32,094 bases of DNA, taken from positions 1 through 32,094 of the forward strand of contig JALOTV010000010.1 in NCBI GenBank assembly GCA_025457685.1, given 5' to 3'. This DNA comes from Opitutaceae bacterium. Its GTDB lineage: Bacteria; Verrucomicrobiota; Verrucomicrobiia; Opitutales; Opitutaceae. A program made the translations under genes and the position numbers. Below are positions 3,848-27,300 of the stretch, in pieces. Numbering within the stretch: position 1 is the first letter of the stretch; every line of letters begins with the position of its first letter. The notes under the pieces were generated by a model that ran no database searches, had not been told where the DNA came from, and worked only from the letters and a program-made list of their open reading frames with translations.

Positions 3848-3867
3848 CGTCCTGCGCGCTCAGGACG
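3848..3867 (-). terminator. Perfect 7-bp inverted repeat at the 3' end of the response-regulator gene
   Basis: CGTCCTG and CAGGACG form a perfect 7-bp stem with a 6-base loop, overlapping the stop of the minus-strand response regulator. A T-run in the minus-strand sense (ATTTTTCC) lies only about 15-20 bases further on, so this is not a canonical intrinsic terminator. It could still be a partial terminator or a processing hairpin between the regulator and purC. Confidence 0.3.
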
Positions 3868-4501
3868 CCAACTGCCGACGGGTGAAGCCCTTTTCGATCG
3901 CGTAGCGGATGAGTTGGGGGGTCGATTTCAGGTCGAGTTTCGCCATGATGTTGTGCCGGTGATTGCGCACCGTGCGGGGGCTCAGGCCCAACTGGGTGGC
4001 AATTTCTTCGTTGGTTTTACCATAACCGAGGTGGCCAAGTAGTTCCATTTCCCTTTCGGATAGGATCTTGTCGAAGGATTTTGCGTCGGCTCGCATGCGA
4101 GCACGCGCCTGGTGGACGCTGGCGCTGGCGTAAAATTCTCCGGCGAGAACGTTGCGCATCGCCTCGTGAAGCAGGTCCAAGGTTTGGAGGTTTTTGTCCA
4201 CAAATCCGTTCACACCCGCCGCGAACGCCCTATGCAGGGTGTATTCGTCCGTGTGGGAAGATAGGGCCAGTAGCTTTATCTCGGGCGAGAGCGTGCGCAG
4301 GGCGGGTGCCAGCTCGAGCCCATCGCCATCCGGCAGCACGACGTCGAGGAGCACCAAATCGGGGAGATGCAGTCGACAGAGTGCTAGTCCCTCGCCCACC
4401 GTATCCGCCGCATGGATAGTGGCATCCGGGTAGGTCTGGCGGCAGGTCATGACCAGCAGCTCCCGGATCAAGGTTTGGTCTTCGATGATGACGAGCTTCA
4501 T
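3860..4501 (-). CDS. NarL/FixJ-family response regulator (receiver plus LuxR-type HTH)
   Basis: This is a 213-aa DNA-binding response regulator. The receiver domain (about residues 1-120) has the acidic pair IIEDQ near the N-terminus, the phospho-acceptor Asp at residue 53 in LVLLDVVLPDGDG, and the conserved Lys in GFVDKNLQ. The C-terminal LuxR/NarL helix-turn-helix (about 145-205) has LSEREMELLGHLGYGKTNEE and LGLSPRTVRNHRHNIMAKL. Phosphorylation by a partner kinase normally drives dimerisation and promoter binding. The ATG at 4501 is chosen over a GTG two codons upstream at 4507. The gene is 65 bases downstream of the receiver-Hpt gene on the same strand, so the two are probably cotranscribed. 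No histidine kinase lies nearby. Control of the divergent surface-protein operon is a reasonable inference, not shown. Confidence 0.92.
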   Translation of the reverse strand: MKLVIIEDQTLIRELLVMTCRQTYPDATIHAADTVGEGLALCRLHLPDLVLLDVVLPDGDGLELAPALRTLSPEIKLLALSSHTDEYTLHRAFAAGVNGFVDKNLQTLDLLHEAMRNVLAGEFYASASVHQARARMRADAKSFDKILSEREMELLGHLGYGKTNEEIATQLGLSPRTVRNHRHNIMAKLDLKSTPQLIRYAIEKGFTRRQLAS

Positions 4502-4566
4502 GGACACATAGGAGAGCGAGGGGGCAAGGGGAGGAGCGCGTTCTCGCGCACGGACAAACCAAGTGA

Positions 4567-5292
4567 TCAGGACGTCGTGTTGCCGGGGTTGGCCGAGGTT
4601 GTGCGCGATACCCCGAGGCAGGTGTCGAGGGCGGCCAACTCGTCTCGTATGGGGCGACCGAGGCGCAGTTGCTCGGCCAAGTGGCGAGCCGCCTCGTGGA
4701 TGGAAAGCGCTCCCACCATCCCCGAGAGCGATACGAGATTATGCAAGGCCCTCAGGGCGGATTCTTTGTGGCCCTCGCTCATGGCTTGGCCAAATTTCAC
4801 ACGCTCGGCGGCAAATTGCTCCTGACTGCGCCCGACCAACAGACGACGTGTGGCCTTTTGCTCGCTAACCATTTCCGGAAAATTGGGGCCGATTGCTCCC
4901 GTGGGCGCCGAAACCACGCGGGAAAGGATTTCTTTCAACTGTATGTTGGTAAATCCTTTGTGTAGTATGCCGGAAATCCCCAGGCGCAGGCAAGTCGCGC
5001 GGGTATCCGGGCTGTCATCCGAGGTGATCGCGATAACCGGCGGAGCCTCGCGTCTGCCAAGGATGGTCTTGGCGAGTTCGGCACCACTCAGGCCCGGCAG
5101 GTTCCAATCCACACACACGAGGTGAACGGTTTCTTGGTCCAGCCTTCGCAAGGCCTCCTCCCCGTCCAAAGCCTGAACCACGCGATAGCCCAGTTGCCGC
5201 AAGGCCACTGCGACAAACACCCGATCCAGCAGCACATCGTCGACGACAAGGGCGGTCAAAGCGGGGTTTCTTTCGCGATTCATGGGCGTCAT
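4567..5292 (-). CDS. Receiver domain plus Hpt-like domain protein
   Basis: The 241-aa protein begins with a CheY-like receiver: VVDD at residues 16-19, phospho-acceptor D62 in CVDWNLPGLSG, ITSDDS, and K112 in ILHKGF. The C-terminal third (about 155-225) is mostly helical in appearance and contains RALHNLVSLSGMVGA. There H184 sits where histidine-phosphotransfer (Hpt) domains carry their phosphorylated His (AHxLKGxxxxxGA), although the usual Lys is Val. This would allow intramolecular or intermolecular phosphorelay without a kinase domain. It lies directly upstream of the NarL-type regulator, a plausible phosphorelay partner. The receiver call is secure; the Hpt call is likely but rests on one motif. 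The start is the ATG at 5292; an in-frame ATG at 5283 is an alternative. Confidence 0.85.
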   Translation of the reverse strand: MTPMNRERNPALTALVVDDVLLDRVFVAVALRQLGYRVVQALDGEEALRRLDQETVHLVCVDWNLPGLSGAELAKTILGRREAPPVIAITSDDSPDTRATCLRLGISGILHKGFTNIQLKEILSRVVSAPTGAIGPNFPEMVSEQKATRRLLVGRSQEQFAAERVKFGQAMSEGHKESALRALHNLVSLSGMVGALSIHEAARHLAEQLRLGRPIRDELAALDTCLGVSRTTSANPGNTTS

Positions 5293-5765: not shown

Positions 5766-8700
5766 ATGAAAAACCATCACCGCATCCCGACGCGGGCCAA
5801 GTGGCTACTGTCACTCGGCGCGCTGTTAGCGACCGGGGTTTCTTCCGTGTGGGCCTTTACGCCCGCCGGAACCGAGATCCGAAACCAATCGACGGCGACC
5901 TACTTGGACGCCGCCAACACGCCCCAAATCGCGACCTCCAACGAGGTCATCAACACCGTCGCTCCGCTTTACAGCGTGGTCGTCACGCCCAACGCGACCG
6001 GCGCCACCGGCTTCTTTGCCTACGACGGCACCCCCGCGCTTACCCAAGTTTCCGCGCCGGGCAATGTCGCCTACTACTCCTACATCCTCGAAAACACCGG
6101 TAACGCCCCGGATCGCTTCAACGCCGACGTGCGCGCCCGCGCCGCCGGTGGTGCCGTCATCGCGCCTTCGGCCGCCGGCATCGAGATTTACTACGACGCC
6201 AACGGCAACGGCTTCGTGGACGCCGGTGACGTCCTCTTGGACAACAGCACCGCCGGTTCCGCCGCCGCCACCCCGATCGTCAACCCCGGCCAGAAGATCC
6301 CTCTCGTCGTCGCGGTTCACACTCCCTCCTCCGCCACCGCCGCCCAGCGCATCGAGACCGATTTCCAGGTCACCGGCGTGACCGGCTCGGCCTCGGACGC
6401 CGCTTCCAACTGGAACCGCACCACCTTCGCCCCCGGCGTCGGCGTCGTCACCGCCTACAAGTCGGCTGACGTCACCTCCGTCGCCCCCGGCCGCCAGGAC
6501 GTCACCTACACCATCCAAGGCTCCAACACCGGCAGCGCCGCCGTCAGCTCGGTGATCTTCGCCACCGGCGTGGACACGTCCGGCGATGGCGCCGAAGACG
6601 TGGTCGAGGGTATCCTGATCGAGGACGAACTCGACATCACCAAGATCGATGTCGGCGCGAACTACGCCAACATCAACCCCAACACCACCGGCGGCCAGAT
6701 CAGCCCCTCGACCGCCATTCCGCTGTTCTGGGACGATGCCAACAGCCTCTGGACCGCGACCAAGCCCACCCAGGCCGCGTCCACCAGCGCCGGCGACATC
6801 GGGAAATACAAAATCGCGCTCTTCATCCCCGACGCCGACTCCGTCGATAACACCGGCAACGGCGCCTCCGATCCCGTGCTCTCGCCCGGCCAGAGCTACC
6901 GCATGTCCTTCACTGTGGACATCCGCGCAGGCATCACGGCCACGACCCTCGAGAACGAAGTGTCCGGTCAATACGTCTCCGGCGGCGTGACCCGCGACTT
7001 CGAGTCCAACATCCACATCATCGAGATCGGTGGCGACGCCAGCACCACCACGGTGGACGTCGAGCTGAGTCCCTACACCTTCCTGAACGGCACCACGGCC
7101 AACCTTTCGGCCATCACCAACGGCGCGAACCGCGGCGCGCTCGAGCACCCGGGCGTGGACGCCCTCGGCTTGAACGCCAGCGCCGACACCACCTCGGCCG
7201 GTTCCGAGACGGATGCCGACGCGCATCGCAACGCCGGCACCACCGTCACGTTCCCGCTCACGTTGACCAACCCCGTCGCCACTTCCAGCGCCACGGATGT
7301 GTTCAACATCAGCATCGTGTCGGGCGTTCCCTCCGGCTGGGTCGCCACCGTGTTCAAGGCTGACGGCATCACGCCTCTGGCCGATACCAACGGCGACAGC
7401 CGCCCCGACGTGGGCGAGGTCGTCCCGGGTGGGGTCGTTGACCTCGTGGTCAAGGTCGTCATCCCCGACAACAGCCCGGCCGTGCCCGCCGCATCCGTCA
7501 TCACGGTGCGCGCCACCTCGGTGAAACGGGACGCCAACACCACCGTCGTCGCCACCGACGACACGCTCCTGCGCATCCCCGAGGTTCGCCCCGCCGGCGT
7601 CGACATCGCCATCCGCGGCCAGGTCTCCGGCGACAACTCCGTCCAGACCGCCGGCGATGCCTCCGCCGATGACGACGACGATGCCACCGGCACCGCCGTC
7701 CAGCCCGGCTCCAACGTCGCCTTCGCCATCCAGGTGGCCAACATGCGTAACCGGCTCCAGAACGCCCCGCGCACCGCGGACGAGACCACCACCGCCGTGG
7801 ACACCTATCAGTTGTCCGTGACCAAGAACGGTCCCGTGGCCACCACCTTCGACGTCGTGCTCTTCCGCGACCTCAACGGCGACGGTGTGCTCGACGCTTC
7901 CGAGCTGAATCCGATCTCGGACACCGGCTTCCTCAGCCCGGTCGCCACCCTCACCGGCGCGCCCCTGGCTGTCGGCACCGCGAACCTGTTCAACCTCCTC
8001 GCCCGTGTCACCGTGCCGAGCGAGACCCCCGCCGGCGACTACTTCGTGGACGTCACCGCGACCTCGACCAACCGCTCCGCTCAGACCGACACCATGCGTT
8101 TGCTGGTCCGCGTCGTGGCCGCTCCGTCGATCTCGGTCATCCCCGACAACACCGCCACCGTCGTTCGCGGCGGCTCGGTGACCTTCAAGCACGTCGTGGT
8201 CAACACCGGTAACACCACCGGCACCGTCCAGCTCAGCACCGCGTTCCCCGCCGGCCTCTTCCCGACCGGCTACACCGCGGTGTTCGTCAGCGACACCGGC
8301 GCCATCCTCGGCACCGACGGCGTCACCTACGTGACCCCCAGCCTCGCCCCGAACCAGTCCCAGGAGTTCTACGTGCGCATCTTCGTGCCCGCGAACGCCT
8401 CGGTCGGCGCCACCGTGCCCCTGACCATCACTGGTAGCGGCACCGCCGGCGGCGCCACCCTCGGCGCGGCCACCGACGACGCCGTGGACATCATCACCGT
8501 GATCGACGGCAGCCTCGACCTCCAGAAGACCAACTCGCCCACCGGCGCCGTCCTCCCCGGCGGCACCATCGGCTACACCACGGTCTTCAAGAACCTCGGC
8601 GGCGCCAGCATCACCGACGTCGTCGTGTTTGACGCCATCCCCGCCAACTCGACGTTCGTCGCCGGCTCCCTCGCTGCCTCCGGTCTGCCCGCCGGCGTCA

Positions 8701-8879
8701 CCACCACCCTCGAATACAGCACCAACAGCGGTGTCTCGTGGGTCGCGGTCGAGCCCGCCGCCGCCAGCGTCACCAACGTGCGCGTGAAGCTCGTTCGCAC
8801 CGCCGCCCTCGGCGTGCCGCTCAACGGCCTGCTCCCCGGTGAGTCCGGCAGCTTCACCTTCCAGGTGACCGTCAAGTAA
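5766..8879 (+). CDS. Secreted DUF11-like multidomain surface protein (surface gene 1)
   Basis: A 1037-aa exported protein of unknown function. A Sec signal peptide (basic MKNHHRIPTRAK, hydrophobic LLSLGALLATGVSS) probably ends after VWA at about residue 30. It is followed immediately by TPAGTEIRNQSTATY, a motif shared with surface genes 2 and 4. The rest is a series of beta-sandwich-like modules with repeated patterns such as YxxxLxNTGN and VPxxxPAGxYxVxVxATS. At least three acidic, EF-hand or dockerin-like loops occur, near residues 144 (DANGNGFVDAGD), 540 (DTNGDSRPDVGE) and 702 (DLNGDGVLDASE), suggesting bound calcium. The last ~120 residues form a DUF11-type repeat (LQKTNSPTGAVLPGGTIGY, YSTNSGVSW) ending SFTFQVTVK. 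I see no cysteine and no transmembrane, LPXTG or PEP-CTERM anchor. It is first in the cluster, followed by a strong hairpin. Codons are strongly C-ending. An adhesin or fibre subunit is inferred. Confidence 0.88.
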   Translation: MKNHHRIPTRAKWLLSLGALLATGVSSVWAFTPAGTEIRNQSTATYLDAANTPQIATSNEVINTVAPLYSVVVTPNATGATGFFAYDGTPALTQVSAPGNVAYYSYILENTGNAPDRFNADVRARAAGGAVIAPSAAGIEIYYDANGNGFVDAGDVLLDNSTAGSAAATPIVNPGQKIPLVVAVHTPSSATAAQRIETDFQVTGVTGSASDAASNWNRTTFAPGVGVVTAYKSADVTSVAPGRQDVTYTIQGSNTGSAAVSSVIFATGVDTSGDGAEDVVEGILIEDELDITKIDVGANYANINPNTTGGQISPSTAIPLFWDDANSLWTATKPTQAASTSAGDIGKYKIALFIPDADSVDNTGNGASDPVLSPGQSYRMSFTVDIRAGITATTLENEVSGQYVSGGVTRDFESNIHIIEIGGDASTTTVDVELSPYTFLNGTTANLSAITNGANRGALEHPGVDALGLNASADTTSAGSETDADAHRNAGTTVTFPLTLTNPVATSSATDVFNISIVSGVPSGWVATVFKADGITPLADTNGDSRPDVGEVVPGGVVDLVVKVVIPDNSPAVPAASVITVRATSVKRDANTTVVATDDTLLRIPEVRPAGVDIAIRGQVSGDNSVQTAGDASADDDDDATGTAVQPGSNVAFAIQVANMRNRLQNAPRTADETTTAVDTYQLSVTKNGPVATTFDVVLFRDLNGDGVLDASELNPISDTGFLSPVATLTGAPLAVGTANLFNLLARVTVPSETPAGDYFVDVTATSTNRSAQTDTMRLLVRVVAAPSISVIPDNTATVVRGGSVTFKHVVVNTGNTTGTVQLSTAFPAGLFPTGYTAVFVSDTGAILGTDGVTYVTPSLAPNQSQEFYVRIFVPANASVGATVPLTITGSGTAGGATLGAATDDAVDIITVIDGSLDLQKTNSPTGAVLPGGTIGYTTVFKNLGGASITDVVVFDAIPANSTFVAGSLAASGLPAGVTTTLEYSTNSGVSWVAVEPAAASVTNVRVKLVRTAALGVPLNGLLPGESGSFTFQVTVK

Positions 8880-8971: not shown

Positions 8972-11900
8972 ATGCTTAAACTGCCTCCAGTCTCCGCCTG
9001 GATTCGACGCGTCTCGATTCTCGGCCTGGCGATCTTTGGCCTCCTGTCCTCGGGTGTTTCACCTGCGGCCCGGGCGGTCACGCCGGCCGGCACCGAGATC
9101 CTCAATCAGGCGACCGCCACCTTCGAGTGGCTCGGTCGCGCCCACACCGTCACCTCCAACCTGGTGTCCAACTCCGTGCTGCCCGTGCATGGCCTGGTCA
9201 TCAAACCCGATGGCACCGTGCCCGCCCCCGGCCTCCTGGCCACCGCCAGCCCCGGCGCGACGGTTTACCTGCCCTACACGTTGCTCAACACCGGCAACAC
9301 CACCGACAGCTTCCGCCTGTCCCTCGTTTTTCTTCCCGATTCCAGCTCCTTCGAGCCCCTCGATCGTCGTCTCTTCATCGATCTCGATGGCGACGGCGTG
9401 CTCTCGCCGCAGGAGGCCTCCGTGTCCATCGATCGCGTCGACCGGGTGCCCGCCGGCGGACTGGTCTATCTCATCGCCCAGATCCGCATCCCGGCCAACA
9501 CACCCAACGGCGCGCGCGCCTTCTTTGATCTCCGGGGCCGCTCCCTCGCCGACGCCACCGCGAGCGACGAGAGCAACATCGCCCGCATCACCCTCTCCGA
9601 GGATCCGGTGCTGCGCCTGCGCAAGTCCTCCGACCGCCCCTCCGTGCTCGTTGGCGGCGTCGTCACCTACACCCTCGACGTGCTGCACGTCTCCGGCTCG
9701 CCCGCCCTCGGTGACCTGTCGGTGGTGGACGGCGCGCCGCGCCGCGGCATCACTCCATCGACGACGGCCTCACCTGGCGCTCCTTCTCCGCACTCGGCGG
9801 CGAACCGCCCGCCGCCTCCGTCACCCATGTCGGCGTGCTTTTCCCCGGCCCCTTCTCCGCCGGCCAGTCCGCCCGCGCCCGTTTCCAGATTCGCGTCGCC
9901 CCCGACCACGCGCCCGGCCGCATCGGCAACCGCGCCGACTTGCGCTACCGCGCCGCCGACGAGCGTCTGCTCACCGACGCCTCCACCAACGAGATTTTCG
10001 TCGAGGTCCTCCCCGCGTTCGAAGGCGTCTTCATCGGTCCCGAGGCCGATCCGCGCCGCGTCGGCGAGACCAGCACCAACGACGACTCGACCCTCGACGG
10101 AGGTGTCAATTTCGACGCCGTCGGCCCTTACCAGGTGGTCGGCAATTTCGTCTTCTTCCGCAACACCATCGAGAACGCCTCCGCCGTGTCCGACGTCATC
10201 AACATCGACGTCGTCGCCGACGACTCCCAGTTCACCGCCGCGCCCGCCCCCGGCGCGCGCTCCGTCCGCGCGGCCCGCGTCTCCGCCCGCCAGCAAACCA
10301 ACCTGCCCGCCGGCTGGATCGTCCAGGTGCTCAGCGCGGACGCCAGCCGCACCCTGCTCGACACCAACGGCGATGGCGTGCCCGACGTCGGCGCGCTCCC
10401 CCCGGGCGGCCGCGCCGATGTCGTCGTGCGCGTGCTCATCCCGCCCGGTTACGTGCCGCCTCCCGCCCAGCCCGCCGCCTGGCAGGTCCTCATCCGCGCC
10501 GCGTCCGCCGCCGCGCCCACGCGGGCCAACCTCACCATCAACCGCATCCCGCGCGTCATCTTGGTCCAGGAGTTTTGGCGCACCTTCGGAAAAACCTTCG
10601 ACGCGCCGGCCGTCATCCTGCCCGGCACCGCCATCACCTACACCAACCGCTTCGGCCATGGCGGCTCCTCCTCCGTCACCAACGTCGTCATCATCGACAA
10701 CCTCAGCGATCGCCTGGTCAACGCCCGCGACATCACCACCGGCTCCATCACCAGCCTCGATGGCTCCCTCACCCTCACCGGCGTCACCGCCGCCTACGAT
10801 GCCGCCGCCAATCGCATCGTGTGGAACATCCCCGTAGTGCCGCCAAATTTCGTGGGCGAGTTGCGCTTCACCGCAGATGTCGCGCAGGGCACCCCCGGCG
10901 GCACCGAGATACCGAACGAGTTCACCATCCAGTCCGATCAGTCCACCGCCGTCCGCGTCTCCAATCTCGTCTCCACCGTGGTCAACGCCCCCGCCGTTCT
11001 CACGGTGGAAAAGGAGGTCAACCGCGAGAACGCCTCCATCGGCGACCCCGTTCTCTACACCGTCACCGTCACCAACGCCGGCCCCGTGCCGCTCATCTCC
11101 GGCGTGTCGCTGGTCGACGATCTGCCTCGCGGCTTCCGTTACCTGCCGGGCTCCGCCCGCCTCGAGGGCGCGCCGCGCGAGCCCGTGATCGATGCATCCG
11201 GCACCAGCCTCACCTGGCCGCTTGGCGATCTGGGCCTGGGCGAATCCCGCGTCGTCACCTACGTCACCGTCGCGTCGGTGGACGCGCTCGAGGGCGACGG
11301 TCGCAACGTCGCCACCGCCACCGGCACCTTCCCGGGCGGCGGCGTCGGGGTGGCGAGCGACGTCGCCGTGGTCAGCCTCGAGGGCGGCCCTTTCGCCAAC
11401 CGCAGCGTGATCCTTGGCCGCGTCTTTGTGGACGAAAACGCCGACGGCGCCTTCACCCCCGGCGAGCGCGGCCTCGCCGGCGTGCGCCTCGTGCTCGACG
11501 ACGGCGTCACCGTGCTCACCGACCGCGACGGCCTCTACCACATCGAGGGCGTCACGCCGGGCGTGCGCGCCTTCCGCCTCGACGAGAGCACCCTGCCACC
11601 GGGCCACACGCCCGTCGTGCTCGATTCCCAAAACGCCCTCAACCCCTCCTCCCGCTTCCTCGACCTGCGCTTCGGCGTCCTCCACCGCGCCAACTTCGCC
11701 GTGCTCCCGCCCGCCGACCAGATCGTGCGCATCGAAAAAACCCCGCCCACCGACGCCGTTTTGCTCGAGCCGTCCTTCCTCTCCGAAAACGGCGTCACCC
11801 ACGTGGTCGCGCGCTGGAACGGCGAAGCCCGCCCCACCCACCGCATCGACCTCAACACCGGCACCGTGTCCGTCTTTTTCCCGGGCATGATCAAGACCGG

Positions 11901-14900
11901 GCGCAAAACCAACCAGCCGGTCGATGAGCTCAACGTGGACCGCTACCGCATCCACACCGACCACGACGCGGGCTACACCCGGCTGGATATCCGGCTGCGC
12001 AAACGCACCTCCGGCTACCCCGCCGACTACGTGCGCGTCGCCCCCGCCGGCGACGGCGAGCTGCGCATCAGCGTGGGCGGGGCCGCCATCCCCGACGACG
12101 ATGAGGCCGCCCGCGCCTCCGCCGCCGTCGAGACCGCCATCCACGCCGTCGGCACGCCCGAGCCCGCCGCCGAGCTCGCCGCGCTTCAGGGCCCCGTCGT
12201 CCACGAACCCGCCGAAGGCACGGCGTTCATTTCCCGCGACAAGATTTCCGTGCGCGTCAGCGCCCACCTCGCCTCCGCCTTCGAACTCTACGTCAACGAC
12301 CAGCCGGTCTCGAAGGAACAGATCGGCGAAAAGAGCATCCACGTGAAGGCCCGCCGCTCCTTCTACGAATACGTCAGCGTGCCCATCGAGCCCGGCCCCA
12401 ACAAACTGCGCTTCGAGACCAAGGGCCCCTCCGCCCAGGAGACCGGTGTCGTGGAACTCACCGTCTTCCGCGCCGCCGATCCGGAGAAAATCGAGCTCGA
12501 GGTCGCCGACGACCAGCTCGTCGCCGACGGCCGCACCGAGCCCGTGGTGGGCGTGTCCCTGCGCGACCGCAACGGCCTGGCCACCGGTGAATCCACCGTC
12601 ATCACGGTGGAGATATCCGGCGGCCAGATCCTCTCCCCCGACTTCCGCCCCATGGAGCCCGGCCACCAGGTGCAGATCCGCGAGGGCCGCGCCCTGCTCC
12701 GCCTCAGCGCCGCCAACCAAGCCGAGACGCGCATCGTCACCGTCATCGCCGGCCGCCTCCGCCACCGCGCCGACCTCGTGCTCCGCCCCGCCCTGCGCGA
12801 CTGGATCCTCGTCGGCTCGGCCGACGCCACCGCATCGCTCACCGAGAGCCGCGAGGCCGCCTCCCGCACCCGCGCCCTGCGCGAAGAAACCCGCGAAACC
12901 ATCGAGTCCGGCCTGCGCGTCTTTGGTCAGGGCCGCTTCGTCGCCGATACCCTCCTCACCTTCAGCTACGACTCCGAACGCGCCTACGACGACTACCCGA
13001 TTTTCCGCCAGTTTCAGGAGGACGACTACTATCCCGTTTACGGCGACACCTCCAAGATTTTCCCCGAGGCCGCCTCCCGCGCCAAGCTCTACGCCCGCCT
13101 CGAAAAGGAGCAGTCCTACCTCATGTTCGGCGACATCGACACCGAGATGCAGGAGACCGAGCTCGCCGCCCACTCCCGCCGCCTCACCGGCGCCAAGGCC
13201 GACATCAAGACCGACTGGATCGACTTCAAGGGCTTCGCCTCCCACACCGAGCAAGCCCGCGTGCGCGAGGAGATCCCCGCCGGCGGCGTGAGTTACTACC
13301 AGCTCCGCGACCGTGACGTCATCCCGGGCTCCGACGAGATCTGGCTCGAGGTTCGCGACCGGGCCCGGCCCTCCGAGGTGCTCCGCCGCGAGCAGCTCTC
13401 CCGCGGTCGCGATTACAGCTTCGACTACAGTTTCGGCCGCATCCTCTTCAAGCGCCCCATCACCTCGCGCGACGAGGATTTCAACCCGCAGGTCATCGTC
13501 GTGAACTACGAGAAAGACGGCCGCACCGGCGACAAACAATACACCTTCGGCGGCCGCCCCGCTCTGCACGATCCCGACCGTCGCGTCACCGTCGGCGCCA
13601 CCTACCTCGAGGAGGAGAACGGCTTCTTCTCCGACAAGGTCGAGGGCGTGGACGCCACCGTGAAGCTCGACGAAAAAACCGCCCTCCGCGGCGAATACGC
13701 CGAGACCAACACCCTCGACGAGGGCTTCGGCCGCGGCCACCTGGTCGAGCTCAAGCGCGAGGAGGAAAAGACCTCCTACCGCGTCTACCACTCCGACCTC
13801 GACGACACCTTTGACAACCCCGGCCTGCGCGGCTCCCCTGTCGGCCGCCGCCTCACCGGCGCCGAGGCCGTGCACTACTTCACCCCGCGCGTCTCCGGCG
13901 AGCTCGAGGCCTACGACCAGATCGACGTCGTCGGCGGCCGCACCCTGCGCGTCGGCGTCGCCGACATGGTGTATGAAGGCGACAACTACAAACTCGGCGC
14001 CGGCGGCGGCTACGTCACCCAGGAGGAGGACGCCTCCTCCTCGCTCGGCGCCGCCGAGCGCGAGAGTCCTCTCCTCCGCCTCCAGGCCGGCTACGCCTTC
14101 AACAGCCGCATCGACATCGAGGGCGAATACCAGCACGCCTTCGGCGACCGCGACACCGAGCAGCCCACCCGCGGCGCTGTCACCGTCGGTTACCAGGTGT
14201 TTGAAAACACCCGCCTGCTGTTTGGCGTCGAGCGCCGCTACGTCACCGGCGAGGGCATGGCCGACAACCTGCTCCTCGGCACCGAGGTCACGGTCAACGA
14301 CTACGTCTCCGTCTTCAACAAATACGAGCTCGACGCCGGCCAGTCCGGCCAGGCCGGCCGCGCCAACTCCGGCGTCGCCTTCAAGTATCCCCTCCGCCCC
14401 GATCTGCGCGTGGACCTCACCGCCGAGGCCAACAACACCGTGCACGAGACCGGCCGCGCCCCGATCGGCCGCGAGTTCTGGTCCCTCGCCAGCGGCTTTG
14501 AATACACCCCGTCCGATGCCGATCACACCCTCGTCGGCCGCCACGAATACAAATGGCAGCCCGATCGCCGCGAACACTTCAACGAACTCGGCGGCACCGT
14601 GAAGGTCCTCGACGACCACACCGCCTTCGCCCGCAACCGCCTCTCCTTCGCCGAGGTCACCTCCCCCGACCAATACGACGAGTGGATCGCCCGCGTGCTC
14701 TTCGGCTGGGCCTACCGCCCGCTGTTCGAGGACCGGCTCAACGTCATCTCGTCCTTGGAATTCAACTACGAGCGCACCGCCTCCGCCAACCTCGCCCGCA
14801 TCCAGGACGTCTTGTCCTCCCACGAGTTCACCTACCAGACCGCGCCGGACTGGATCATCGAGGGCAAATACGCGGTCAAGGCCGCCTGGGGCGACTTCCT

Positions 14901-15279
14901 CGACGACACCGTCTGGACCGACGTCAAGGCCCTGCGCCTGCGCCACGATTTCACCAAGCGCTTCTACGGCGCGGTCGGCGCCCGCCTGCTCAGCCAATAC
15001 GAGACCGAGGTCCACACCCTTGGCTACGGCGTCGAGGCCGGCTGCATCATCCGCAAGGATTTCATCATCGCCCTGGGCTGGAACTTCGAGGGCTTCCACG
15101 ACCGCCGATTCTCCGCCGGCGACCACTGGGAACAGGGCGCCTACGTCGCCTTCCGCGTGAAGTTCGACGAATCCCTCTTCGGCGTGCTCCGCCAGCTCCG
15201 CGGCCGCGCCAACGCCGATGCCGACGCCGCCGGCTCGTCCACCGCCTACAACCTCAACGCCGCGCCCTCCGCGCCCTGA
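8972..15279 (+). CDS. DUF11/SdrD-B-like surface protein with C-terminal outer-membrane beta-barrel-like region; frameshifted (surface gene 2)
   Basis: The gene is read in two frames: frame 2 from ATG 8972 to about 9750, then frame 1 from about 9750 to the stop at 15279, giving about 2100 residues. The signal peptide (MLKLPPVSAWIRR, then SILGLAIFGLLS) probably ends at ARA, followed by VTPAGTEILNQATATF. Next come DUF11-like modules with acidic loops (DLDGDGVLSPQE, DTNGDGVPDVG). An SdrD-B/CNA-B-like module lies at about 11.40-11.70 kb (VILGRVFVDENADGAFTPGE, TDRDGLYHIEGVTPG), and Ig-like segments at 12.2-12.8 kb. From about 12.8 kb to the end, alternating aromatic/polar strands (DDYYPVYGDTSKIF, LEKEQSYLMFGDID, SRGRDYSFDYSFGRILFKRP) resemble the outer-membrane barrel of other large Gram-negative DUF11 proteins, as I recall them. 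The barrel would anchor the protein or form a pore. Only one cysteine was seen, in the barrel. Both frames are well conserved outside the junction, so the break is a recent mutation or an assembly error. Confidence 0.85.
9722..9770 (+). other. Frameshift junction with apparent loss of about 17-27 codons in surface gene 2
   Basis: Frame 2 reads LGDLSVVDGAPRRG and then loses sense. Frame 1 becomes sensible at SIDDGLTWRSFSALGGEPP. In the homologous modules ending surface genes 1 and 3, the equivalent DxIP and YSxxxGxxW elements are separated by roughly 17-27 residues that are missing here. Restoring the frame needs a net gain of 1 (mod 3) bases. The junction contains GGCGCGCC and GCCGCGGC palindromes, a sequence prone to polymerase slippage or assembly collapse. 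Confidence 0.8.
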
Positions 15280-15302: not shown

Positions 15303-18300
15303 ATGCCCCGTCTCCGCTCCAGTTTGGCCCGTCTCCTCGCCTTCCTGTTCTGGGTGTTTTTGCCCGTCTTCGCCGGCGCGCAGACGCTGCGTCTCAACGA
15401 GCTGGCGATCGCCGGCGCCGAGTTCGTCGAGCTCGACTACACGGGCTTCAGCACCCCGCAAAACCTCTCCGGCTATGCGCTCGTCACCGCCGGCCCGGGC
15501 GCTTCCGCCGGGTTCGCTCTGCCATCCTTCACCCTCTCCGGCTCCGGCCGCGTGGTGGTCTACACCGGCGCCGGCGTCGCGTCGGGCAACGTGCTCTACC
15601 TCGGCCGGCCCGGCCCCATCCTCGCCGACGGCGGCGATTCCGTGCTCATCCGACGCCTCTCCGACTCCGCCGCCATCGATTATTTCTCTTGGGGCAGCGA
15701 GGTCGCCGCGCCCCCGTCGCCGCTGGTATTCGCCACCAGCTACAACACCGGCGACGGCTTCTATGCGCCGGGCGACTCCCTCGCCTACATCGGCACCAAC
15801 CCCGACCTCGCCGCCCACTGGATCAATCGCCGCGGGGCCAACATCACCCCGGGCGCGGCCAATACCGTGCAGACGCCGCCGACCTTCGCCTACAATGTCG
15901 CCGCGCCCGCGGACATCGATTCGTGCGAACTCATCCCGCTCGCCCTGACGTTTACCCACACCGACGAGGCCCCGCTGCGCGGCACCACCCTTTCGTTCAC
16001 CCTGCCGGCGGGCTTCCTCTACGCGTCCGCCAGCGACGGCGGAGTCTTTAACAACGCCACCCGCACCGTCACCTGGACGCTTCCAGTCAGCCTCGCCGCC
16101 AACACCTTCGCGCGCACCGTGGGCGTGCGGCCCGACACCGCCGTCACCTCCGGCGCCTTCCCCGCCGGCAATCTTGCGTATTCATATTCTCGCTACGTCG
16201 GTGGTCCCGCGGTCCCGGGCTCCGGGGCCAACGCGGTCGATCCTTTCGCCGTCGCCCGTCCCGATCTGTCCGTCTCGGTGGCTGATTTCTCGGCGCCTTC
16301 CCAGCCCTACATCATCACCCAGGGCTCCGGGGTGGTGGCCCTGCTTGTGCGCGTCGCCAACGCCGGCCCGGGCGAGCTCGCCGGCGACGGCGCGACCGTC
16401 GCCCTCGATCTGCCCGCCAATCTCTCCCTGCTCACCGCCCGCATCGGCGGCCCCACCGGCTCGTCCGTCCTCAACCTGGTCTCCAACCTCGCCACCCAGG
16501 AGCACAGTTTCTCCACCGGCGTCATCGCCGCCGGCGCCTCGCGGGATTTCTACATCCAGGCGCGCGTGGACGGTTGCGGCGACCTCTCGCCGGTCATCGA
16601 CGTGAGCTTCGGTTGCTCCGACGCCGCCCCCGGCGCCGTGACGAGCGAGATCGCGCTGCCGACCGTCACCTTCCCCATTTACTGCGACGTCGAGCTGGCC
16701 ATTTCGTATCCGTCTGGCACCTACACCGCCGGTCAGCCCATCCCGGTCTCGGTCACCCTGACCAACCGCAACAACAACGCGCTCGACCCCGCCGGCCTCG
16801 TCCTCGCGTTTCACCCCGGCTTCTTTGTCGATTCGATCAAGCGGAGCGGGCTCGACGTCGGCGTCTACGATCCCGCCGCCCTGCCGGAAAAAACCATCAC
16901 ATTCAGCGCCGCCGACCTGGGCGGCGTCCTGGCGGGCAACTCCACCACCACGCTCGACATCGTGCTGCGGCCGTCCCCCTCGCTGCCCAACGACCGCAAG
17001 TTCACCGCCTCTCTCGGCTACACCGTGCCCGCCCTCGGCCCCACGCCGGTCCTCCCCGTGACGCGCCAAAGTCTGGGCGTCCAGGCGGTCCAGCCCGGAC
17101 TCACCGTCTCGCTCGAGGATCCCGCCGCCCCGGGCAGCACCACCGTGCTCGCCTCGCGCGGTGACGACGTCTTGTTCCTCGTCACCGTGCTCAACAACGG
17201 CGCGGGCAATCTCAATCAGGACGGCCCCGATCCCGACGCCTTGCCCGACGGCGCCTTTGTCGAGATCGCCGGCACGGGCGGCGCCTTGAATATCCTCCAG
17301 GTGCGCGACGTCACGGGCCTCGCCGGTCCCTACACCCCGACCAGCGGCGTGCCCGTCGCCTTGGGCGTCAACCCCGCCAACTCGCGCCAGCGCTGGAACA
17401 CCGGCGCGGTCAACGCCGGCCCGGCCGGCGCCAAACGCTACATCCTGGTCGTCTCGGTCGAGGACTGCGTCGGTCTCGAGGCCGAGCTTGATTCCTACTG
17501 GTCGGTGCAGGGCGCCCTTCTGCCCGCCATCGACACCGCCACCGTGTCGGCCGAGAGCGCGGGCTCCGTCGACATCGTGCTGCGCACCCCGGAGCTCTCC
17601 ATCGTCGCGCCGGCCTTCACCGTGGATTATTGCGCGGGCGTCTCCACGAGCGTCACCTTCGCCAACGCCGCCGGCGCGGGGCCGGTCCGCAATCTCGTCG
17701 CCGCCGTCACCGGGCTCAACCTCACCGCCTACGACGTCGTCGTCACGAGCGGCAATTTCACCTTCACCCCGAGCTACGCCAACCCCGGCCATCCCGCCGA
17801 CGGCCGGCCCGCCTTCGTCCTCATCGGCGGTCAGGACACCGATGGGGACGGCGACGCCGACGATCTCGATGCCGCCGCCTCCGCCGTCCTCACCTACCAA
17901 GTCTCGGTCAAGACCGGCGGCGTGGCCTGCTCGCCCGCCGGGGCCGGCCTGGTTTACCAGCCCTACTACGAGGACGACTGCAACATCCCCTGGACCGCCG
18001 GCACCCGCCTGAGCTCCTACGGCGTCACCACTCCGCCCGGCATCGCATCCGATTTCGACGGCCCCGACTTCGCCGACGTCAACGCCTCCGGTCTAACCTA
18101 CGACTACTCGTTCCGCTACCGCGGTGCGCCCGGCGCCCCGTTCCGCTACACCCTGGTCATCGCCTACCCGCTGGGCTTCGCCTACGCTTCCGTCACGCCC
18201 GCCATCGTCGCGCCGTCCATCCTCACGCACAACGCCCTCGCTCGCACCGTCACGGTCGAGATCGACGACGTGTTTGACGCTTCCGGCGACTATGCCGCCG

Positions 18301-21300
18301 ATTTCGCCTTCCTGTTCGACGCCCCGACCGACAACTGCGCCGCCGGCCAGTCCTACACGTTCACCTACAACCTCACGGTCACCGATCCCGCCGATCCCAC
18401 CGACTGCAACGATTGCCCCCAGACCGAGGACTTCAACGGCAGCCAGACCACCACGCTCAACAACGACGACGAGGACGCCATCGTCGCCCATAACCGCGAG
18501 GTCACCTACCTGAACACCCACCTCAACGGCGACCCCATCACCCACGGCGCCGCCGAGACCTGCACCGAGCTCGTCATCGACCACTACCTGCGCTTCTCCC
18601 CCTCCGCCCCCGCCAACTGGTTTGTCAACGTCTCCGGCGTCGATCGCCCCCTCGTCTTCGACGAGACCTTTTTCAACAACTACGGCATCCCCAACGGAAA
18701 CCTCGCCGATCTCCAGCTCGAGGTTTACTACTTCGCCTCCGCCGGCACGCCCTCCGCCCCCTCCGGTCCCAACTACGGCCCCACCGGCTCCGGCCTCGTC
18801 TCCCTTTCCGACATCAATAACCTCAGCCCCACCGGCGAGGGCTTTGATCGCGTGAAGATCGACCTCGACGGCCTCCAGGCCCTCGGCGGCCCGACCAGTC
18901 GCCCCAACGACGGAGGCTGGCTCTGGTTCCGCTACCGCATGGCGGTGAAGAGCAACACCACCCTCGGCGGCACCATCGAGTTCGCCGACCTCGAGATCCC
19001 CGTCCTGCTCGGCCTGTGCAACGCCGACGATAAAAACGAATTCCGCCAGGCCGTCGTCTTAAACGCCGCCCGCTCCGCCGCCACCGTCTCCATCGCCAAC
19101 GTCTCCGGCTCCGATTCCCGTGTCGTGGACCGCTGCGAGCCCGTCACCTTCCGCCTCGAGATCGGCAACCAGGGCTCCACCCCCTTCGACCTCTACGACA
19201 CCCGCGTCGTGCTTGATCTGGGCAACATCAATCCCACCACCAACCGTTGGGCCTACGATCCCGCCACCGCGGCCGTCTCCTTCGTCGGCCTCAAGAACGC
19301 GGCCACCAACACGCCCCTCGCCGCCTTCGCCCCCGTCGTCTCCGGCCCCAACGACTCCATCCTCACCTGGAACCTGGGCGACCTGCGCGAAGCGTATTTG
19401 CCCGGCACCTACATCGAGCTCACCCTCAACAAATCCTGCGACGAGGCCGGCACCGCCCTCTCCGCCATCGCCTACTCGCGCGACCGCTGCGCCAACGCTC
19501 CCGACCTCGGTCTGCCGTCCGTGCCCTCCGCCACCGGCGGCGGCAACTTCACCACCGCCAACAACGCCAGCTACGCCCCGTCCCTCGACGAGGGCGTGCT
19601 CTCCGCCCTCTTCACCACCGAGCTCGTTTACTACAACGACGGCTACCCGCGCATCCGTTTCGACGTCGTCAACTCCGGCAACGGCGATCTCTACAACGTC
19701 AAGATCCCCGTCCGCCTCGGCGACAACGCCCGCCCGCTCTCCCTCTCCTACGTCTCCTCCCGCGTCGCCAAGGTCGCCGGTGCCGTCACCTTCCCGGGCG
19801 GAGGCGCCCTGACCACGGGCGCCAACTTCCCCGCCTGGATCCTCGGCACCGAGGACGACGCGGTCCCCGTCGTCGCCGGCGCCGACGACGCCGAGCGCGA
19901 GGTTGTCTTCTCCATCGGCAAGTTGCCCAGCGGCGCCCTCGTCACCGTCGAGGTCACCCTGCGCATGCACCTTTGCCAGGACCTCTTCGCCACCATCCTG
20001 CCCGAGACCCGCTGGGGCTGCTTGGGCTCCGCCTGCGGCGCCAACATCGAGACGACCAAGCAGCGCATCAACATCGCCCAGGGCAACACCCGCGTCTTCG
20101 TGCTCGAACACAGCGCCGACCCCGCCGTGCTCGATTTCTGCGGCTCCCGCACCCGCTTCACCATGGAGATCGTCAACGTCGGCGCGGTGGACGTTTACGA
20201 GCCCATCATCCGGGAACAACTCCCGCCCGGCCTCACCCTCGTGCCCGACTCCGTCCGCTACGCCGTCGATAGCGGCTCCGGCTACGGCGCCACCACCTAC
20301 GACGCCATGACGCCCTTCCCCGGCGGCGGCTCGCGCTACACCTCGCTCACCGGCACCGGCTCCGCCGCTTCGCCCCAAGTCATCACGTGGAACTTCACCG
20401 ACCCCGACGACGACGACAGCGAATCCGACTCCCTGCTCGTCGGCGCCGCCCATCTGGACTCTCGCCCCACCGACCCTAATTTCACCCGCCACCGCGTCCT
20501 GCGCCCCGGCCAGCGCATCCGCGTCATGTTCGACGCCGAACTAGTCGCCACCGGCGACTGCGCCAACGCCCTCGCCTACTTCAACTCCGACCGCAAGGCC
20601 GAGGCCACCATCCTCTTCGACCTGCCGTGTAATCACGACAACACCGTCACAGCCTCCGGCTCCCCCGCCAGCCCCTCCCCGCGCGGCCCGCTCAACGCCG
20701 ACACCCGCGACTCCAACTTCCTCGATCCCGGCGCCGCCGACGTGCTCCTCGCCCTCGCCGGACAAAACACCACCCAGGCCGCCGCCCTCACCACCGCCCA
20801 AGTAAACGGCGAAACCGGTGACACTGTCGAGTGGACCTTCACCATCGAGTCCCTCGGGCCCGGCGTCGTCCCCGACGCCTCCCTCCAGGTCTTCCTGCCG
20901 TCCAACCTCACCTTCGTCTCCGCCGCCATCATCAGCGGCCCGTCCAACATCACCCTCGACACCGCCACCCCCGCGCCCGTCGCCGAGCCCGGCGGCGCAC
21001 GCCGCACCTTCACGTTCAACAACACCAACCCCTTCATGATCGCCCAGGGCCGCGCCGACTACCTCGACGCCAGCGGCACCATCACGATCAAGATCGTCAC
21101 CACCATCAACACCTGCGCCGAGGATCTCGTCGGCGTCGAGGGCACCTTCGCCTGGGGCTGCTGCCAGGGCGTCCCCGGCCTTGAAGACGCCAACGGCTCC
21201 GTCAGCGCCTCCGTGGACGTCAAGACCGTGCCCGACGCTCCCGTCGTCAGCCTCGCTTCCGGCCCCATGCCCACCCAGGTCGCCTTCTCCACCTGCGGCG

Positions 21301-24300
21301 GCTACCTCGACATCACCCTCGTCAACCCGAGCACTAACCGCGAGCTGTCCTTGCGCGACTTCGACCTCGCCGTTCCCGTGCCCACCGGCTTCGCCTACGA
21401 CGCCTCGATCGACGGCGCCACCTGGACCTACTCCCTCACCGGCGGCGGAGTCTCCCCCCGCGTTGCCGCCGCCGCCGAGCTCACCCCCGCCGAGGAGGAG
21501 CCGCAGATCGACGGCTCCTTCCTCCGCTGGCGCTCCCAGGCCAATTCCGGCCTCATCCCCGCCGCCAAGGCCCGCCTCTTCCCGCGCGAGACCGTCGTCA
21601 TACGCGTTTACTTCAAGCTCCAGGCCGGCGGCCCCTACTGCGACACCAACCCCGACTCCGACCCGTCCATCCCCAATTTCAACCAGCTCGCCACCTTCAA
21701 CCACACCGATTCCTGCGGCAACCAGCGCCCAGTCAGCCTCGCCAATCTCTCCATCGACCCGCGCTCGCCCAACCTCAACGTCGCCATCACCCCCGTCTCC
21801 GGCCCGGCCTTCATCACCGCCTCCACCACCACCGTGGAGTGGACCCTTACCCTGCAAAACGCCGGCGACGCCCCCGCCGGCGAGTCCGCCCTTCTCGCCA
21901 CCTTCGGCGCCGGCTACACCGGCGTCAGCATCACCCCGCTCGGCGGCGCCCCCGCCCCGACTTCCTCCTCCGGCAACACCTTCACCTGGGATCGCGGCGA
22001 CCTGCCCGTGCTCTCCGTCTCCGGCTCCTCCGGCGACACCCTCCAGTGGCGCGTCACCGCCACCGTGAACACCGTCTCGCGCGGCGATCTCTCCGGCGTG
22101 CTCGATACCAACGGCTGGTGTCTCGACCGCGCAGGAAACGACGTCTGTAATTACTCGCTGGATACACGCCGCGGCTACGTCTCCGGCGGCACCATCGAGA
22201 AGGTCATCGACGGTCTTTCCCTCTCCGCCCCGGCCGTCTCCACCCCCGCGGCAAACGATCCCGCCGCCAAGACCGCCGACCTGACCATCGGCTCCATCGT
22301 GCGCCACCTCATCACCGTCGAGCTCTTCGAAGGCGGCGCCACCGATCTCCGCGTCGAGGACCTCATGCCCGCCGGCTTCGTCTTCCTCGAGGCCTCCGCC
22401 CGGCGCGGCGTCTCCGGCGGCTGGACCGCGCTCACCAATTCCGGCACCGGCCAGCGGCTCGTCTTCACCGGCCAGCCCATCCTCAACGCCATCACCGGCG
22501 CGGCCACCGTCGTCGACGGCGACGCGCTCTACGTCGAGGTCTGGAGCCGCGTGGGCGACCTCGCCGCCAACGCCTCCGGCGGCTCCAAGGTCAACACCGC
22601 CACCCTCACCATCAACCGCGGCACCGGCCTTGGCGCCATCAGCTACACCCACGACAGCCCCGCCGGCGTCGACCTGCGCGACACCACCACCATCACCTTG
22701 ATCGAGCCCGAGCTCACCTCGCCGACCAAGACCTCCGTGCCCGCCTCCGGCACCTCCGGCACCCCCAACGTCATCAACCTCGCCACCGACCCCGCCTCCA
22801 TCGCCTACACCCTCACGGTGGAGAACACCGGCGACGCCCCCGCCTACGAGACCGTGCTCATCGACGCCGTGCCCTTCGGCCTCGTCGTCTCCTCCGCCAC
22901 CGTCACCCGCAACGCGGAGGCCCCGCTTGTGCTCGATACCCACTACACGTTCGCCTTCGTCGCCGGCGTCGGTGGCAACCCCGGCACCCTGACCGTCACC
23001 CTGCTCGACCAGGCCCTCGCCGTCCTGGCCCCGAACGATGTGCTCACCGTCGCCTACACCGCGTCCATCGCCGGCGCCGCCCCGGGCCAGGAACTGTTCA
23101 ACCTCGCCACGTTCAACACCTCCAGCCTCCCCGGCACCGGCGCCGCCAAGACCACCGCCCGAGGCACCGCGTTCCTCGAGGCCGACGACGAGCGCACCGC
23201 CTACCTCACCGCCGAGGTCCGCACCTTCCACCAGATCTTCGGCGTGTTGGAGCGGTCCAAGGGCGTGAAGAACGAACTCACCCTCGCGGCCGGCGCCGCT
23301 GCGGCGGACACCTATCGCTTCCCGCCCGACGCCACCACCCGCGCCACCATCGGCGAACTCGTCACCTACCAGGCCCGTCTCAAACTCCCTCCTTTTGTCA
23401 CCATCTACGACCTTCGTTTCCAGGACACCGTGCCCGACGGTCTCACCGTGCGCTCCATCAAGTGGGAACTCGTGCCGCGCGATGGCGCCCTCACCGTCGC
23501 CGCGCTCGATATTCCCATCCCCGCCCAGTCCTCCGGCGCCACCCCGATAAACCACCTCCACAGCTCGACCACCAATCCCTTCCCGGGCTCGCTCAACGGC
23601 GGCTCCACCCCCGGTAGCGATCTGTTGGTCGAGATCACCGCCACCGTCGACCAGCAGCTCAACGGCGGCACCGCCATCGCCGCCCAGAGCTTCGCCAACA
23701 CCGCCACCTTCAGCTGGGGTGATTTTTCCGGCGACACCACCCGCACCACCCTCGCCACCGACGCCGTCTCGTTCAGCGTCCTCGTGCCCAACATCCTCCC
23801 CGCGAGCGTCACCAAAATCGCCTCGGAATACCGTCGTGAGGACGGCGCCACCGTCTTCACCCCCTCTACGGTCACCGTCGTCAATCGGCTCTCCGGCACC
23901 CCGACTTTCCGCGGCATAAACGACAACGCCAACGCCACCGGCGTGCCTGTCGTCGCCCCGGGTGAGTTCGTCCAATACCGCGTCCGCGTGGTCAATTCGG
24001 GCACCACCACGGCCTACGCCGTGCAGGTTTACGACGTCGTCCCGCGCACCACCGTCGAGGACTTCGCGGTCGGCGCGCCCTACGGTCTCGAATACACCGA
24101 TTTCGGCGGCCTGCTCCCGCCTTCCGTCGTCGCTTCGTCGGGCACGAGCGCCATCCTCACCGGCCCCGCCTTCGTGCAAAACGAGCTCACGCTCACCCTC
24201 GACCAAGTCGCCGCCGGCGCCACGGTGGACGTGTTTTTCTGGATGCGCGTCCGGTCCGATGTCGCCGCGTCGCTGCACTTCGGCAACCGCGCCCGCGTGC

Positions 24301-27300
24301 TCGACTACCGCACTCTGCCCGCCGCCGGCGTCGCCTTCCCCGCCGAGGCCCGCACCAGCTCGTCCACCCCCGCGTTCGCCGCGATTCCCTTCGCCGCCGC
24401 ACGCGATGTCGGCCTCGCCACCGCCGCGCCCGTCTTCACCACCACGTTCCAGAGCGACATAACCGATCCCTCGCCCGATACCGCCCTGTCCGTCGACACC
24501 GGCCGCGCCACCATCGGCGAGGAGGTGGTGCTGCGCCAGACCATCGACCTGCCCGCCGGCCTCGCCCTCTACGAGTGGCGGCCGCGCAACAACCTCACCG
24601 GCCATGATGTCGACGCTTGGGTCGTCCCGTCCGGCCTCACCGTGCGCCGCGTCACCTTTACTTTCGGCGCCGACGCGGCCATCGACCTCCCCGCGGGCAA
24701 CATCACCGTCAACGCCGGTTCCGGATCCACCCGCATCGCCCGCCCCGCCACCCTCGCCGGCGCGCCCGCCGGCTACCCCGATCTGCTCGCCACCGCCATC
24801 TCCACCCCGGGCGGCGAGCCCGAGTTCACCCTCACCGTTTACGCCACGGTCAATGGCGACAGCCTCGCCGCCACGCCCATCCGCATCACCAACGGCTCCG
24901 GCTCCGCCACCATCGTGGATGCGGGCGATACGCTCTCCCTCGTCCCCGTCCATCGCTGGGCCCAGTGGGATGGCATCACGGCCAATCTCAACCAGGCCGC
25001 CGCCCCCACCCGCGCCTTCGGCATCGTCGAGCCCGGCATCACCAACGTCTCTTTCACCAAGACCCGCCTCACCGCCGCCACCTCCGGCACCGGCGTCAAC
25101 TTCACCAACTTCTACGGCGAGGGCCCGCTCGCCCTCGCCCCGCAAAACCCCGTCCCGTCCGTCCCGCTCTTCACCGATGGCGACGTCATCACCTACCGCA
25201 TTCAATACACCAACTCCGGCACCGCCCCCGCCTACGGAATCGAGGTCATCGACCGCATCCCCGCCGGCCTGACGTTCAACCCCGCCTCCCCGGTCGTCAC
25301 GTCCGAGACCGGGGGCACCGGCACCCTCACCGCCGCCGTCATCGCCTCCGCCGCCATCGCGCCGACCGACGCCAACTACTCCACCAACGTCCGCTTCACC
25401 GTGGACCGGCTCGACGTCGGCGAGACCGTCCAGTTCACCTACACCGCCACGGTCAACGATCCGGTCGCGGTCGGCCGCTACCTGCAAAACCGCGCCGACC
25501 TCTCCGATTATTCCACCCTGCCCGCCGGCTACGTGAGCACCCAGACGCCCGCCACCGCGGGCGTGGTCGAGGCCAACGAACGCGACACCGACTCCGCCAA
25601 TCCCTATGTGGACCGCGGGCCGGTCTGGGCTTTCGCCGGCATCGCCGACAACAACGTATCCAGCAAAACCCTACAAACCGAGCTCACCGCCCCCTCCGGC
25701 AAGCTCTCCAACGGCACCTCCCGCGCCACTCCGGGCGAGCTCCTCACCTACGAGCTCACCGTGGACATCCCGGATGGTCGCGTCCTGCACGACTTCTATC
25801 TCTTCGACGAACTGCCCGACGGCACCACCTTCGTGCCCGCCCTCACCAGCTATGCGCTCAACGGCGTGACCGGCCTCACCGCCGGCATCGTGCACGATGG
25901 CAACCGCCGCTTCGGCCTCGCCCTCGGTGATCTCGCCGGCACCGCCGCGGCCAACGAGCTCGTCGTGACCCTGCGCGCCACCGTGGACCTCGTGCGCGAC
26001 ACCGCCGCCACCCCGGTCGTGGCCGGCGCGACCTTGGGCAACTCGTTCACCTTCTCCTGGAACCAGGTGGACGTGGACCCCGATCCCGTGGTCAACCTCG
26101 CCACCGACGCCCGCACCACGGTCAATTCCGTCACCGTCGGCCCCGTCGTCCTCCAGATCCAGGAGCCCGATCTCGACGCCTCCCTGGCCAAGACTCAGGC
26201 CAACGTCCAGGAGGCCGGGGTGATCGGCTCGCCCGCCGCCTCGCGCGGCACCGCCGCCTACTACGCCTACGATGCCGCCGGCTCCACCGTCACCACCGTG
26301 GCCGGCGTGGAGTCGACCCTGCCCGACGACCGCGTGGTCTACACCCTCTCCGTCACCAATTCCGGCGCGTCCCCGGCCTTCGACATCGCCTTGCGCGACC
26401 TGCTCCCGGCCGACGACGGCGTCACTTACCAGAGCGGCGTCGGCACCGTCGTCGCCGGCTCCGCCCTGCCCGGCGCCCTCGGGGCCGACTTCGCCGGCTC
26501 GGCCGGCAGCCGCCTCACCGTCGCCACCTCCTCCGCCGTCAACCCCGCCGGCGAGACCGCCACCCGGCTCGACTTCACCATCGATTTCCTGCTTCCGGGC
26601 GAGACCGCCACCATCCGCTACGTCGCCCAGGTCGATCGCGGCATCGGCGCCGGCCACTACCTGGGGGCCAATTCCGTCAACCTGCGCGACTACGGCTCCC
26701 TGCCCGCCGCCGCTCTCGCCGTGTCCGTGGGCAACCTCGCCGCCGGCGATCTCGTGCACGACAACGCCCTCGAGCGCGACACCGACTCCTCCGTCGCCCC
26801 CTACGCCAAGCAGGGCCCGGTCGTGCGCCACCTCGGCGTGGTCTATCCGACTTTGGCCAAGTCAGTCTTCCGCCTCTACGACGCGGACGGCTCCCACGTC
26901 CCCGCCGCCGTCGCCGCCGACGAGGTCCTGCGCGTGGGCGACATCCTGCGCACCGAGCTCTCCGTCACCCTGCCGCGTTACACCCGCCTGTTCGATGGCG
27001 GTGTATCCGCCGTGCGACTACGCGACGTGTTGCCCGCCGGCCAGTCCCACCTCGCCGCCACCGTCGAGGGCGTGACGTATCCGGATTACAACGACGACAC
27101 GCTCGATCTCTCCGGCTTCGCCCCCGCCGTCTCCACTCCCGCCGCCTCGGGCGTGCAGACCGTGAATTTCGACTTCGCCGACGTCGTCAACTCCACCGGC
27201 GCCGCTCTCACCGGCACGGTGAAATTCCTCAGCGACATCCGCCCGCTCGCCGCCGACGGCTCCGATTTGCTCGCCTCGACCACCGGCCAGCTTTCCGGCG

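Follow-up and report, generated by a model that had tools for sequence, protein, structure and literature searches.

Structure modeling confirmed that, from about 12.9 kb of the window (the whole stretch of 32,094 nucleotides analyzed here), gene 2 becomes an outer-membrane β-barrel, which would presumably be closed. Taken together, the data are best explained by a giant outer-membrane barrel that is dedicated to Ig fibers and would most likely be a portal for folded Ig chains, a reading to which we give close to an even chance. DUF11 fiber proteins can rank among the longest proteins of Gram-negative bacteria, and we know of no established explanation for their passage across the outer membrane or their attachment to it. 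For this step, a giant, dedicated barrel tied to such fibers in several phyla offers a concrete and testable candidate. In addition, a borderline match to SprA suggests that giant translocon-like barrels may reach beyond the type 9 system.

The predicted barrel and its flanking domains

The initial annotation had noticed that gene 2 changes from sandwich modules to alternating aromatic strands with four motifs. This change is real, as the last Ig-like module ends at around 12.79 kb and barrel-type strands begin at around 12.9 kb, and the motifs YPVYGDTSKIF (13030-13062), LEKEQSYLMFGDID (13099-13140), RGRDYSFDYSFGRILFKRP (13402-13458) and YVAFRVKF (15142-15165) are all in frame. AlphaFold2 models and the alignment place the first seven predicted barrel strands, with a conserved YYPVYGD loop, at positions 12895 to 13278 of the + strand, on which all the features of gene 2 lie. 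They are followed by an inserted small β domain, plug-like and SprA-like (13288 to 13518; motif GSExVxxEVRDR...DYxxDYxxGRILxxRP...YE), and then by 31 further predicted transmembrane strands (13537 to 15165), the last of which is GAYVAFRVKF. The predicted total for the window protein is around 38 strands, given by seven strands, an insert of about 75 residues and 31 strands. Many of these are long, antiparallel and amphipathic, and they run to the C-terminal end, as expected for an outer-membrane barrel.

The model of positions 12469-15276, computed with 56 homologues, reached a pLDDT of 83.4 and a pTM of 0.79, and that of the Saccharophagus lead protein, with about 40 strands, a pLDDT of 81.6 and a pTM of 0.72. 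The two modeled homologues are 22% identical, and their strands coincide one to one when mapped through the alignment, except that the Saccharophagus model adds a hairpin and a strand of four residues. The two jobs are not fully independent because their alignments have most sequences in common; both alignments were built without the loci of the whole-genome search, so that the models draw nothing from the closest relatives among Verrucomicrobiota. Structure prediction, the check proposed at the outset, yielded around 38 strands, a number for which the usual barrel geometry (shear n+2) gives an estimated backbone diameter near 6.8 nm. The parity of the strand number fits both barrel ends being in the periplasm, while which of the early strands line the barrel wall is unproven in these models. 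The top Foldseek matches were the large outer-membrane barrels LptD, SprA, SlpA, TBDT and FimD, plus apolipoprotein B. Global TM-scores to all known barrels were low (up to 0.29), as expected because the strand number differs from theirs.

As a single sequence, the barrel gave no match in Pfam, NCBIfam or PDB. Other members of the family do have Pfam matches, to the barrel families OMP_b-brl, Porin_4, BBP2 and DUF2490, and the best PDB match of the family profile is the porin KdgM (E 2.4e-5). Together with the conservation of the family, these matches argue that the barrel is beyond chance. The outer-membrane location proposed initially is therefore well supported by the concordant models, by the barrel-family profile matches and by an aromatic β-signal in one branch of the family. 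In this proteobacterial branch the protein ends exactly on the aromatic F or Y of the last strand, a canonical β-signal. The last strand of the window protein, YVAFRVKF, also ends in an aromatic residue and is followed by a tail of 37 residues (15169 to 15276), predicted to form an amphipathic helix at 15169-15231 and then to be disordered. Such a tail had been considered unusual. It is not anomalous, since the family splits into a tail-free branch and a branch including the window protein, in which 3-37 residues, starting with DE, DQ or DT and then hydrophobic, extend beyond the last strand; the tail is thus a feature of the branch. C-terminal domains beyond the last strand are also known from other outer-membrane proteins, for example OmpA.

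Upstream of the barrel, gene 2 encodes a DUF11 module (10999 to 11325; PF01345, E 5.1e-16), a SdrD_B-like module (11419 to 11565; PF17210, E 3e-4, below the Pfam cut-off) and, immediately before the barrel, an Ig-like module of the Invasin_D3/Big_1 type (12478 to 12789), for which the PF09134 match is weak and the model shows sandwich strands. The SdrD_B module scores above the Pfam cut-off in syntenic relatives, and that of gene 2 resembles a module near the end of the partner giants of Rhizobiales. An AMIN domain suspected at 11.56-12.2 kb gave no Pfam match even at E 10, and Pfam recognized no peptidoglycan-binding domain in the window protein or in window-type members.

The four-gene operon and the break in gene 2

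In its genome assembly (3.5 Mb, 426 contigs, 77.5% complete), the window makes up contig 190. Genes 1 to 4 all lie on the + strand. Gene 1 (5766 to 8879) encodes a secreted Ig/DUF11-type protein of 1037 residues with a signal peptide and a 'TPAGTxIxNQ' start; it is a paralogue of gene 4 and of the N-terminal part of gene 2 (8972 to 15279). Gene 3 (15303 to 29342) encodes a secreted DUF11/isopeptide-type fiber protein of about 4,680 residues. It has seven DUF11 repeats and a match to an isopeptide-forming RrgB-type model (E 1.5e-35), and internal isopeptide bonds are possible from this sequence match. The ATG of gene 4, which starts at 29339 and is incomplete at the contig end (32094), overlaps the stop codon of gene 3 by 4 nucleotides.

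Barrel and DUF11/SdrD-B modules are fused in one frame, as first described; however, gene 2 as a whole is not a single open frame. Its signal peptide and first modules (8972 to 9730) are in another frame than the remainder (about 9750 to 15279). The GC3 periodicity changes frame near 9.77 kb, and comparison by blastp with two intact relatives (L109 and L110) locates the frame change, together with a loss of about 35 residues, at 9731 to 9775, where around 20 residues of the window stand for around 55. In these relatives a single open frame of about 2,150 residues spans the break point. A programmed frameshift is unsupported because the relatives read through and some 35 residues are absent; the break could reflect either a genuine deletion or a fault of the assembly. 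The barrel sequence is untouched by the break, but the barrel is parted from the signal peptide.

The operon is syntenic with that of other Verrucomicrobiota, in the order gene 1 homologue, barrel gene and gene 3 homologue. In L109 and L110, the orthologue of gene 1 is directly upstream of the barrel gene (E 5.6e-206) and that of gene 3 is downstream. An extra ORF with a rhodanese-like end, absent from the window, lies between the barrel gene and gene 3 in both relatives (L109, 5595-6878; L110, 14155-15426). Response-regulator-like genes diverge from the operon on its upstream side, both in the window (3860-5292, - strand) and in Geminisphaera (L011, 1250-2191, - strand), and are possible regulators.

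A barrel family paired with Ig-fiber genes

The barrel belongs to an unnamed, lineage-spanning family that is previously undescribed in the literature found. Our literature search returned no paper describing it, and a paper on T11SS cargo (PMC12282271) was rejected as a source on DUF11, its mentions being incidental and mostly of DUF1194. The barrel occurs in 3 of the 57 nearest genomes and in 13 of 388 genomes of the phylum, its own genome counted, where no second copy was detected in the 77.5%-complete assembly. The family extends through Pseudomonadota, Verrucomicrobiota and Omnitrophota and to cyanobacterial plasmids. In the tree, the window barrel joins Verrucomicrobiota of other families (support 100/100, 38-39% identity) and is separate from the Opitutaceae copies, to which it is only about 28% identical. 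This grouping outside the Opitutaceae copies suggests horizontal transfer or old paralogy of the barrel and its operon.

A DUF11-like gene is found directly upstream of 43 of 60 barrel genes, versus 26 of 461 background ORFs, and the modal overlap between this gene and the downstream barrel gene is 4 nucleotides. On the Eleftheria, Devosia and Sulfitobacter plasmids, a giant gene precedes the barrel gene, and an Acinetobacter plasmid carries several small DUF11/NEW3 genes, the barrel gene, an OmpA-family gene and a DUF11 gene. The Sulfitobacter pair, with a giant of about 4,650 residues (L107), adjoins a ParDE toxin-antitoxin pair, and a 91-kb contig of Pseudorhizobium tarimense bears three giant-plus-barrel pairs (L018, L019 and L039). 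Four Omnitrophota loci (L027, L084, L032 and L081) depart from this pattern: instead of a DUF11 giant, a protein of 515-685 residues, whose end resembles an OMP strand (GVNMSLNRF and similar), is encoded upstream of the barrel.

In some members, OmpA domains are present at the junction between fiber and barrel. An OmpA domain closes the partner giants of Saccharophagus (E 2e-15) and Luteimonas (E 4.6e-13); those of Rhizobiales have SdrD_B near the end and, behind it, a conserved domain that is OmpA-like by eye only and has no Pfam match. The barrel protein itself carries the OmpA domain in Eleftheria and in a Chromatiaceae member (L060), where it sits between the modules and the barrel. Altogether, 8 of 57 family members have an OmpA domain in the arm, and wherever the modules are recognized, their order is DUF11, SdrD_B, (OmpA), Ig and barrel. 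Since OmpA domains bind peptidoglycan, the chain just before the barrel would be periplasmic in the members that bear one. Fiber modules and barrel form one chain in some clades and are split between two genes in others, in the same order, which suggests that the parts behave as one machine.

The barrel as a candidate portal

These observations would fit the following mechanism. The C-terminal 780 or so residues of gene 2 would form a single-chain outer-membrane barrel of around 38 strands, with the small β domain after strand 7, while the Ig/DUF11 arm would be on the periplasmic side, at least where it adjoins the barrel. The barrel would serve the co-encoded Ig-fiber proteins, presumably the products of genes 1, 3 and 4 here and giant DUF11 proteins elsewhere. 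Folded Ig chains would pass through the portal or be held by it, and the resulting surface fibers would keep their base tied to the periplasm or to the peptidoglycan. The initial proposal of an export pore for genes 1, 3 and 4 gains real but indirect support from the gene pairing, the fused and split arrangements, the predicted pore width and the borderline SprA match. A static anchor between outer membrane and peptidoglycan fits nearly as well.

Such a tether, comparable to SlpA/OmpM, would fasten the periplasmic Ig arm and the partner giants and export nothing. The OmpA domains beside the barrel or at the C-terminal end of the partners, the OmpA-family gene that adjoins the Acinetobacter barrel gene, and the place of SlpA among the higher fold-match TM-scores are all consistent with it, and those giants that end in OmpA may lie entirely within the periplasm. 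The family resembles the SlpA/OmpM connectors (PMC9388160) in its large C-terminal barrel behind a periplasmic arm that, in the members with an OmpA domain, would have a wall-binding function, but SlpA of D. radiodurans has 30 strands, and a coiled coil and a SLH domain (PMC9388160) in place of the Ig/DUF11 and OmpA domains of the family. However, about 38 strands are unnecessary for a pure anchor, and window-type members have no recognized peptidoglycan domain. Furthermore, with their 20-40 Ig modules, the partner chains are estimated to be far longer than the width of the periplasm. We regard the tether, the main rival, as somewhat unlikely. The portal is favored because these chains would exceed the periplasm, because the estimated lumen would admit folded Ig domains, and because the closest relative by sequence would be a translocon of proteins.

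This candidate relative is SprA/Sov, the type 9 secretion translocon of Bacteroidota and a 36-strand barrel (PMC10994853), a strand number that the prediction for the window protein exceeds. With a profile of the insert and the first following strands (32 members), SprA was the best of 177,635 PDB sequences (E 0.002). The alignment spans SprA residues 700-781 (about 80 residues) and extends past the insert motif, while the full-length family profile gave no SprA match in PDB at E≤10. TIGR04189, the SprA model, was the one that matched the largest number of members with the insert, 6 of 32, with E 0.0057 at best and 0.0094 for the window; the model was matched at 8.5 bits, far under its 200-bit cut-off. 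No SprA homologue was found in the 19 relatives searched, a result of no weight because the control genomes gave none either, and genes 1, 3 and 4 (the last incomplete) have no T9SS C-terminal sorting domain. The sequence match of the insert to SprA is thus suggestive and does not amount to membership. Like SprA/Sov (PMC10994853), a giant single-chain barrel that exports proteins with Ig-like β-sandwich domains, the family has an inserted domain with a GxDYxxDYxxGR motif followed by similar strands; unlike it, the window barrel is fused to a DUF11/Ig arm. The more specific proposal of a widespread export route outside Bacteroidota, with a SprA-related barrel of about 38 strands in a unit of two to four genes and its own giant Ig-fiber cargo, in which folded Ig chains would traverse the outer membrane with their base still attached to peptidoglycan, is unlikely in our estimate.

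Other known systems were compared in the same way. Among the literature found, a single paper mentions 38-stranded barrels and reports three, unnamed in the main text, that are predicted in Deinococcus radiodurans (PMC9388160); their predicted strand number equals that of the window protein, the comparison being by strand number alone, and Deinococcus gave no match in the plasmid search for the family. Chaperone-usher FimD and two-partner secretion likewise have a barrel encoded with its own fiber or exoprotein cargo, but the family has no usher, POTRA or Omp85 match, and the POTRA domains and 16-strand barrel of TpsB/Omp85 proteins were not found.

In a self-display reminiscent of autotransporters, the barrel would export solely its own N-terminal Ig/DUF11 part. 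The domain order is like that of type Va, and DUF11 and Ig are typical surface modules. This is nevertheless quite improbable: profile searches with the window protein and the family gave no match to Autotransporter or IAT_beta barrel domains, many members are proteins of about 1,250 residues with a short N-terminal arm only, and in L060 an OmpA domain lies between the modules and the barrel. A nutrient transporter of the TonB-dependent type is very improbable, in spite of TBDT barrels among the fold matches, since the predicted 38 or so strands are too many (22 in TBDT), profile searches of the window genes and the family gave no TonB plug or receptor match, and the neighbors are fiber proteins and not transport genes. 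Plasmid records do annotate the family as TonB-dependent receptor, within a public annotation that is inconsistent and also uses OmpA family, DUF11, outer membrane protein transport protein and hypothetical.
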